From positions 34,574 to 98,573 of the forward strand of contig JAHBYU010000017.1 of the NCBI GenBank assembly GCA_019635775.1: a DNA stretch of 64,000 nt, written 5' to 3'. Below the pieces are notes generated by a model. That model was given only the letters and a program-made list of their open reading frames with translations, was not told the origin of the DNA and did no database searches. The position numbers and the translations under genes were made by a program. Source of the stretch: Rhizobiaceae bacterium. GTDB lineage: Bacteria; Pseudomonadota; Alphaproteobacteria; Rhizobiales; Rhizobiaceae. Position 1 is the stretch's first letter, and each line of letters begins with the position of its first letter. Below are positions 9,843-10,918 of the stretch, in pieces.

Positions 9843-10315
9843 GGACAGTTGTCTCCGCTCCTCCGCGACAGCCTCCGTTCTTGGTGCCCTGGCCCATACC
9901 GTCGCCAGAACACCGCTTGCGCCCAACACGTTCGTGCAGCGGGCTATCTTGGCCCGTAACAGTACGACTCCAAGGGTGCTCTTCCCAGTCCCCTGGAACA
10001 GTCCGCCCTGCCCGGTCCCGGTAGGCCCGGTAGGACGCGACCATGCATGTTCACGCGTATGTTGGGCTCGAATTGCCACCGGCACTACGGCACGTCAAGT
10101 CCCTTGCCACGGGGCCTGCCCGGCACCGATAGGGCCGCTATCACCGACGATCACGTCCACCGAGTTTCGCTTGCGTCGTCCATGCAGGTCGGGGCGACCA
10201 CCGTTCCTGGTTGCTCAGGTTCAGATGGTTGCCCCAAAATTGACACTGGCCCGAAAATAGACAGAGCCGGCGCGTTGGCCGGCCCTATTGGCGTTGCGGC
10301 GATGACGATGGTGAG
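9843..10315. other. 473-base gene-free gap, probably a degraded insertion site
   Basis: No reading frame here has a family signature, a ribosome site or a convincing start. The gap holds an 18-base tandem repeat resembling IS21-family ends (10228-10263). It also holds a GCCGGC dyad (10266-10271 with 10278-10283) downstream of the small S74 gene, which may be a weak minus-strand terminator followed by a T-rich stretch. It looks like accessory DNA beside tRNA-Leu rather than a lost gene. Confidence 0.4.
10228..10263 (-). repeat. two tandem 18-bp repeats resembling IS21-family terminal repeats
   Basis: Two directly adjacent 18-base units (10228-10245 and 10246-10263) match at 14 of 18 positions. 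On the minus strand they read TGTCTATTTTCGGGCCAG and TGTCAATTTTGGGGCAAC. IS21-family elements carry multiple such TGTCAATTTT-type repeats at their ends. No istA/istB genes are present, so this would be only a relic. The similarity is judged by eye from memory of the family. Confidence 0.35.
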
Positions 10316-10639
10316 TCAGTGAACTCGCGTCATCTCCATCCCGAGCGCGCCATAGTTCACGGCCATGAATCCGTTCGGCATCGTCTGGACAGCCTCAGGG
10401 AAGACCTTCAGGACGTCTTGCGCCATGACGCCCCGATAGACAACATCGCTCCAGAAGTATCGGAATTGATACAGAGGCAGGCCGTTCGAAGCGACGCCCA
10501 CCTGCTCGATGTTCGTCTTCAGTCTGATGTCGCTGGCCGTGCCGCCATTGTCGCCGTCGTCGCTGGATACGCTGAAGGCGGTTACAAGCGACAGCGTTCC
10601 GCATTTGGTGAGTGACGGTTTCGCATACTGCTTCTTCAT
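10316..10639 (-). CDS. small protein with lasso-type leader motif fused to a peptidase S74 (intramolecular chaperone) domain
   Basis: 107 residues. Residues 5-20 (YAKPSLTKCGTLSLVT) match the lasso-peptide leader rule YxxPxLxxxGxxxxxT exactly. A Ser/Asp/Gly-rich linker follows (about 22-35). The rest (36-107) is a compact S74 domain: SDIRLKTNI at 36-44, GLPLYQFRY, GVMAQDV and a C-terminal AVNYGALG. In the S74 family, used for maturation of phage tail spikes, a Ser-Lys dyad in an SDxRxK context cuts just before that Ser, here between A35 and S36. This would free a 35-residue peptide. Start ATG at 10639 has GGGGGA six bases upstream; a TTG six codons earlier lies upstream of that site. No lasso maturation enzymes are nearby. 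The function is unknown; the self-cleavage is inference. Confidence 0.8.
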   Translation of the reverse strand: MKKQYAKPSLTKCGTLSLVTAFSVSSDDGDNGGTASDIRLKTNIEQVGVASNGLPLYQFRYFWSDVVYRGVMAQDVLKVFPEAVQTMPNGFMAVNYGALGMEMTRVH

Positions 10640-10833: not shown

Positions 10834-10918
10834 TGGTGCCCCTGGCCGGGATCGAACCAGCACTCCTTGCGGAACTCGATTTTGAGTCGAGCGCGTCTAC
10901 CAATTCCGCCACAGGGGC
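10834..10918 (-). tRNA. tRNA-Leu (anticodon CAA)
   Basis: An 85-base tRNA. The acceptor stem is GCCCCTG/CAGGGGC with discriminator A and an encoded CCA (10834-10836 on the plus strand). The D-arm is GGCGGAATTGGTAGACGC, the anticodon stem CTCGA/TCGAG encloses loop CTCAAAA (anticodon CAA), there is a class II variable arm, and the T-arm is GGTTCGATCCC. The long variable arm and sequence are typical of tRNA-Leu. A 7-bp hairpin (10929-10946) lies in its 5' leader. Confidence 0.97.

Follow-up and report, generated by a model that had tools for sequence, protein, structure and literature searches.

A putative lasso-type RiPP precursor with a short Peptidase_S74 domain in a Rhizobiaceae genome and its alphaproteobacterial relatives

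Results

Anatomy of the gene and leader

The minus-strand gene at positions 10316-10639 of the window (the whole 64,000-nucleotide stretch of Rhizobiaceae DNA that was analysed) probably encodes a lasso-type RiPP precursor composed of a leader (residues 1-21), a core-like stretch (residues 22-35) and a Peptidase_S74 follower (residues 36-107). Similar fusions were detected in relatives, and those that occupy the position of a lasso precursor point to peptide precursors of a new kind. The open reading frame codes for 107 aa, with the ATG at 10639 and the stop codon at 10316-10318, and a GGGGGA stretch is immediately adjacent upstream of the ATG. The following features were distinguished:

10577..10639, minus strand: lasso-type leader MKKQYAKPSLTKCGTLSLVTA, residues 1-21 (motif match, leader-type spacing, leaders of the same type on contig C1)
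10535..10576, minus strand: core-like variable stretch FSVSSDDGDNGGTA, residues 22-35 (14 aa; length compared with that of stand-alone peptides)
10319..10534, minus strand: short Peptidase_S74 domain, residues 36-107, with the Ser36/Lys41 dyad (Pfam, PDB profiles, AlphaFold2)
10261..10288, minus strand: terminator-like stem-loop downstream of the gene, hardly above chance since one was found for a mean of 0.4 in shuffled sequences

No promoter-like site was found by a scan around the gene.

Residues 5-20 are an exact YxxPxLxxxGxxxxxT, with YxxPxL at residues 5-10, as indicated in the preliminary description of this DNA. The motif occurs once in the six frames of the window, for a mean of 0.0 in 40 order-1 simulations. 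In lasso leaders, the cut position described in PMC10368454 is 17 residues after the Tyr; the same spacing places Thr20 at -2 and Ala21 at -1, with a predicted cut at A21/F22. When this cut was placed in the eight fused leaders that were collected, Thr was found at -2 in seven, the exception being a leader of genome G225 with Ala, and Ala or Gly at -1 in all eight. Two properties of the window protein count against the proposed reading: its leader matches an NCBI curated lasso model (lasso_cyano, residues 1-22) with 13.9 bits, below the cut-off of 33, and its core FSVSSDDGDNGGTA, in which Asp7 and Asp9 are present (an Asp or Glu at 7-9 would be the partner of residue 1 in a ring), has Phe at position 1.

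For four of the fused leaders, the nearest neighbours are stand-alone leaders, either of the same genome (Hyphomicrobium and G600) or of the same genus (the window genome, G000, and G001). Two leader-only peptides of 32 aa each were also observed in genome G002 (L050, contig C84, 8162-8478), where they come, by eye, after glycosyltransferase- and GtrA-like genes. The leader of the first is the closest to that of the window protein (72%), and the G002 trio of RRE, B2 and kinase-like genes (L057: 8933-10694) is on a different contig.

Comparison with the closest relative indicated purifying selection on both the leader (20 codons; pN 0.30, pS 0.87) and the S74 domain (72 codons; pN 0.11, pS 0.70), with synonymous sites near saturation, and the stretch between them differs in both length and sequence. 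In the AlphaFold2 model, built from an 18-row alignment, pLDDT is below 50 at residues 1-3 and 8-32, and residues 41-107 are folded, with block means of 84-91.

A tRNA gene lies about 200 bp from the fusion gene in the window genome (tRNA-Leu, window 10834-10918) and also in G001 (tRNA-Thr, L020 6520-6594). No shared flanking DNA was found between the window and G001, the alignment covering the fusion gene alone. The fusion gene is perhaps a mobile gene landing near tRNAs.

The S74 domain and its possible self-cleavage

The S74 domain with its SDxRLK dyad, also proposed in the preliminary description, was confirmed by a Pfam Peptidase_S74 match at residues 36-84 (37.9 bits, cut-off 22), which opens with SDIRLK and in which Ser36 and Lys41 are kept. 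The best PDB profile match is MyRF (E 0.0003), weaker ones being the distal subunit of a long tail fibre (E 0.011) and a neck appendage protein (E 0.045). The chain continues for 23 residues beyond the Pfam match and ends at residue 107; the AlphaFold2 model shows a short helix near the end (residues 96-99) and no long C-terminal helix.

Self-cleavage before Ser36, coming on top of a cut by B2, could free the precursor or core peptide; this two-cut release is considered rather doubtful. Both dyad residues, Ser and Lys, occur in all eight fusions, and the stretch from the leader cut to the Ser is of a size expected for a core: 7, 11, 12, 13 and 14 aa in the fusions of Hyphomicrobiales, where the stand-alone peptides (n=14) have comparable cores of 8-16 aa, and 16, 23 and 25 aa in those of the alphaproteobacterial family f64, where a plain precursor has 21 aa. 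Against it stand the 23 residues and the model without a long C-terminal helix mentioned above, and the length of the chain after the aligned part, which is 59 residues in the neck appendage chain 3gud and 7 in the window protein. In addition, MyRF carries the same Ser-Lys dyad and, as described in PMC8326128, its domain cleaves itself exclusively as a trimer whose formation is driven by the C-terminal helix. The earlier suggestion that the peptide is freed by its own chaperone instead of a dedicated peptidase is unsupported, because a peptidase exists (a B2 match in seven of seven fusion genomes, with the predicted cut at A21/F22) and the S74 domain is without trimerising helix.

Many Hyphomicrobiales proteins carry, by eye, the same short S74 at the C-terminus of secreted-looking proteins, often with Gly-rich linkers; these proteins (loci L017, L025-L027, L061, L063-L065, L067 and L069-L071) lack the leader.

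Recurrence of the leader-S74 fusion

The leader and the S74 domain were found together in eight proteins from seven alphaproteobacterial genomes: the window genome, G001, Hyphomicrobium sp. 12-62-95 (L022, G101) and G225, which has two copies, and in family f64 G778, G600 and G1046. The second G225 copy (L089, 1811-2300), the one with Ala at -2, has a diverged tail after the S74 and is possibly decaying. At the thresholds used, genomes with any match numbered 13/101 among relatives (one leader-only), 63/397 in the order, 17/385 in the class and 15/298 in family f64. The leader is present in 8 of the 69 distinct S74 domains from the loci fetched by then. Conservation of the motif among homologues, on which the preliminary description relied, thus fails for S74 domains at large and holds in a sub-group with lasso-type machinery.

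A B2 match was detected in all seven leader-S74 genomes (one of them, that of Hyphomicrobium, truncated at a contig end and below the cut-off) versus 9 of 60 S74-only genomes (Fisher p = 1.3e-5, a test that ignores kinship, G000 and G001 being two of the seven and of one genus). The figures are 4/4 versus 2/48 in the window's order (p = 5.5e-5) and 3/3 versus 7/12 in family f64, where B2 is common anyway (p = 0.26); the f64 case therefore rests on gene neighbourhood and not on this count. The control set consists of 60 of the 73 S74-only genomes from the order and f64 searches, 13 order-search genomes and the class-search matches outside the order and f64 lists having been left out beforehand. 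No leader was found before the S74 in any of the 60 control genomes, by profile search and reading of the S74 frames. An S74 frame was recognised in 118 of 119 loci, covering all 60 genomes, and the remaining locus is the leader-only one of G002. A loose leader pattern, sought in the 60 residues before the S74, retrieved only fusions already known and two long proteins with the pattern far from their start. No further fusion was found in the family of G225 (6 genomes). Among the matches listed, plasmid records had the S74 part alone, and 18 of 20, with a related S74, bear the name 'tail fiber domain-containing protein'.

The eight fusion domains fall in four places on an S74 tree (54 domains). 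An AU test rejected a single clade of the eight (p = 0.001) and also one of the five Hyphomicrobiales proteins (p = 0.002), and a single ancient fusion was rejected on this basis. Since the S74 domains are not one clade, the pairing arose repeatedly; in this quick tree (75 columns, 54 rows, 15 of 69 rows, mostly near-copies, having been dropped beforehand) a gain of the leader is indistinguishable from a swap of the S74.

These data bear on the alternative that the protein is a phage-derived S74 fragment whose N-terminus resembles a leader by accident. S74 domains are common in phages (at least 80 viral loci) and nine phage records match the S74 part of the window protein. Nevertheless, of the 73 viral S74 frames that could be recognised in the 80 viral loci listed (seven unrecognised), not one is preceded by the leader, the motif is not expected even once in the window, the leader is under purifying selection, and seven genomes have the fusion, in three cases within or beside lasso-type clusters. 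A chance resemblance is thus very improbable. The candidate identification as a phage tail gene was rejected on the same viral frames, and because the matches in the nine phage records start at residue 33 or later.

Maturation genes in the genome of the window

The preliminary description had reported neither lasso B or C genes nor an RRE in the window and had supposed that maturation enzymes might be encoded elsewhere. Both points held: the window belongs to contig C9, and the single lasso-type B2 match of the genome (NF033537, 58.4 bits, cut-off 33) and, adjoining it, the single PqqD-family RRE match (44.9 bits, cut-off 23.4) are on contig C1. The window gene is hence unlinked to this cluster. 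The locus (L049, C1:178001-198000, genes at 9306-16465 of L049) also contains an AMP-ligase, a GNAT, an acyl carrier protein, a nucleotidyltransferase (PF14907, 69.8 bits) and a kinase-like protein with a weak HprK-related match (26.8 bits, cut-off 200). On the minus strand, opposite to the enzymes, ten ORFs of 29-37 aa carry leaders, e.g. MKKAYNKPTLDKREKLSLVTA, three of which would need a GTG start; the window leader MKKQYAKPSLTKCGTLSLVTA is of the same type as these ten. L049 may be a multi-precursor cluster making acylated or phosphorylated linear peptides.

The window genome yielded no lasso cyclase, and a lasso peptide proper was rejected there for that reason. The search with PF00733 (Asn_synthase) gave two matches, both outside C9: a protein that is MnmA-like by eye (31 bits) and an N-acetylglutaminylglutamine amidotransferase (TIGR03104, 1002 bits, cut-off 570).

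A set like that of L049 (AMP-ligase, GNAT, acyl-carrier-like protein) was observed in Hyphomicrobium (L058). Between the two genomes the AMP-ligases are 49% and the GNATs 33% identical, and the B2 of G000 shares 48% identity with that of G225.

Gene neighbourhoods in relatives

In G225 (L088), the fusion is followed by one gene and then by RRE (PqqD, 49.1 bits), B2 (47.6 bits, cut-off 33), kinase-like and nucleotidyltransferase (80.4 bits) genes; the intervening gene is weakly lipid-A-acyltransferase-like (24.7 bits, cut-off 22.3). In Hyphomicrobium, a leader-only peptide, MKKHYETPTITTREVLSDITAQVAPVSNPGKIG, comes 41 bp after the fusion, and a separate contig carries one further leader peptide together with an RRE, a B2 interrupted by the contig end, an acyl-carrier-like protein (18.7 bits, cut-off 20.8), an AMP-ligase and a GNAT. 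The B2 of G001 is solitary, and an RRE candidate on another contig shows 30% resemblance to the RRE of the window genome.

No lasso-type cyclase was found in the four Hyphomicrobiales fusion genomes (G000, G001, G101 and G225). G001 and G225 gave weak Asn_synthase matches (21.6-31.5 bits), the one frame read in each being MnmA-like by eye, and G101 gave an ordinary asparagine synthase (470 bits, cut-off 267) plus one weak Asn_synthase match.

Lasso-type clusters occur in family f64. That of G600 consists of B2, a cyclase-like gene, a leader-only precursor (lasso_leader_L3, 23 bits, cut-off 19), a methyltransferase, a kinase-like gene, RRE, an ABC transporter and a nucleotidyltransferase, and its S74 fusion is about 190 kb away. 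G1046 has a G600-like gene order without the methyltransferase and with an S74 fusion in the precursor position. The last 4 bp of the cyclase-like gene of G778 are shared with the fusion, after which come methyltransferase, kinase-like, RRE and nucleotidyltransferase genes; B2 is near the fusion in G1046 but elsewhere on the contig in G778. In both genomes, the fusion thus comes directly after the cyclase-like gene, the position of the leader-only precursor in G600. The best model of the f64 cyclase-like proteins is the lasso cyclase NF033535, at 254-329 bits (328.6 for G778 and 292 for G1046), below the cut-off of 525. The G600 kinase-like protein shares 45% identity with its counterparts in G778 and G1046, and the three score 18.6-29.7 bits with HprK-related kinase A (cut-off 200). 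The f64 cores read GSVGGTND... (plain precursor), GSTGTQND... and GSLGDVGD..., and the core of the unlinked G600 fusion GSSGPGND..., with Gly1 and Asp8 throughout; these are the ring positions of Bsf-type lasso peptides as given in PMC10368454.

Two observations made here count against the proposed reading: the leader-S74 proteins are linked to the maturation genes mostly by genome and not by locus, and the kinase-like proteins are far under the curated cut-offs of kinase models.

By eye, from ORF lists, the RRE/B2 or lasso-type clusters of L057, L088, L113, L142 and L144 stand beside polysaccharide-like genes (chain-length determinant, polymerase-like, nucleotide-sugar).

Discussion

Proposed maturation

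The leader of a lasso precursor is bound by B1 and is required for the cut by B2, as described in PMC5067487 and PMC10368454. By analogy, the PqqD-type RRE (B1) of C1 would bind the YxxPxL leader of the window protein and hand it to B2, which would cut after Ala21 and yield FSVSSDDGDNGGTA joined to the S74. The kinase-like protein and the nucleotidyltransferase of C1 may then decorate the freed core or the S74 part. The resemblance of the AMP-ligases and GNATs of G000 and Hyphomicrobium prompts one more guess, that the freed N-terminus is acylated. Because no cyclase was found in its genome, the window product would remain linear, as the linear polyphosphorylated peptides (LPP) of Bacillota do. 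For family f64, the Gly1/Asp8 cores and the clusters that include a cyclase-like gene suggest that a fusion could become a true lasso on S74.

According to another interpretation, which we regard as improbable although it deserves consideration, the S74 is the cargo, the leader serves as a mere address for B1 and B2, and the product is an S74 with a short, perhaps phosphorylated, N-terminal tail. The S74 is indeed the best conserved part (pN 0.11 versus 0.30 for the leader), and since related short S74 domains of the order follow signal-peptide-like stretches (by eye, often with Gly-rich linkers), the leader would here replace a signal peptide. On the other hand, leader-only peptides whose cores are equal in size adjoin the same enzymes, which argues that the enzymes do not need the S74.

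The precursor reading is retained as the probable one. A more elaborate version, somewhat less likely than either the two-cut release or the cargo interpretation, would make the S74 a built-in chaperone and releasing protease: B2 would free the N-terminus, the S74 would hold the tail during tailoring or cyclisation and then cut before its Ser to let the finished peptide go. This would be a novel precursor architecture (leader, core, S74) for both lasso-type and linear phospho-RiPPs, acquired more than once.

Significance

Lasso-type precursors are mostly sought as very short ORFs. A precursor that has a folded domain and measures 105-131 aa could be taken for a 'tail fiber domain-containing protein' and overlooked. 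The natural fusions would show lasso ring closure around a tail bearing a folded protein and would offer a testable self-releasing carrier. The idea of linear phospho-RiPPs, derived from Bacillota, would be extended to Alphaproteobacteria by the cyclase-free version, in which a lasso B2 would be the peptidase.

No published fusion of a lasso peptide to S74 was found by targeted full-text literature search, nor among the papers listed by a looser one that included leader peptides, most subscription papers being outside these searches. Literature on cyclase-free B2 systems and on Hyphomicrobiales lasso peptides was searched without result.

Comparison with known systems

The phosphorylated lasso peptides of the Bsf/paeninodin type (A, B1, B2, C, D, K, N) share with the present systems the YxxPxL leader, the Thr at -2, a discrete RRE, B2, an HprK-related kinase-like protein and a nucleotidyltransferase, to which the f64 clusters add a cyclase-like gene, Gly1-Asp8 cores and an ABC transporter (G600, G1046). 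They differ in the C-terminal S74 domain of the precursor, for which the literature searched gave no counterpart, and the four Hyphomicrobiales fusion genomes gave no lasso-type cyclase.

The LPP of Bacillota are described in PMC13381572 as having an RRE, an HprK-like kinase, a nucleotidyltransferase, a lasso-like YxxP leader and no cyclase, with precursors of 35-200 aa that have variable C-termini and are often in polysaccharide loci; a signal-peptidase-like LppS and the leader YxxPxVLxHQxIxFETxxS are also reported there. The window genome likewise combines an RRE, a kinase-like protein (its match under the curated cut-offs) and a nucleotidyltransferase without cyclase, and the putative polysaccharide-gene neighbourhood of RRE/B2 clusters is as reported for LPP and paeninodin in Bacillota. 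In contrast to LPP, the window leader YAKPSLTKCGTLSLVTA does not fit YxxPxVLxHQxIxFETxxS and ends with LSxVTA, a lasso B2 adjoins the RRE, S74 fusions are present and the hosts are Alphaproteobacteria.

The Pfam match and the Ser-Lys dyad are common to the autocleaving Peptidase_S74 domains of endoNF, MyRF, the long tail fibre distal subunit and the neck appendage protein, whereas the window protein lacks their long C-terminal helix and upstream beta-helix and possesses a RiPP leader. Finally, astexin-1 or pandonodin has been fused to GFP or A1, and the work described in PMC8498205 indicates that a C-terminal protein is tolerated by the processing enzymes. Unlike these man-made lasso-protein fusions, the leader-S74 fusions are natural and recurrent.
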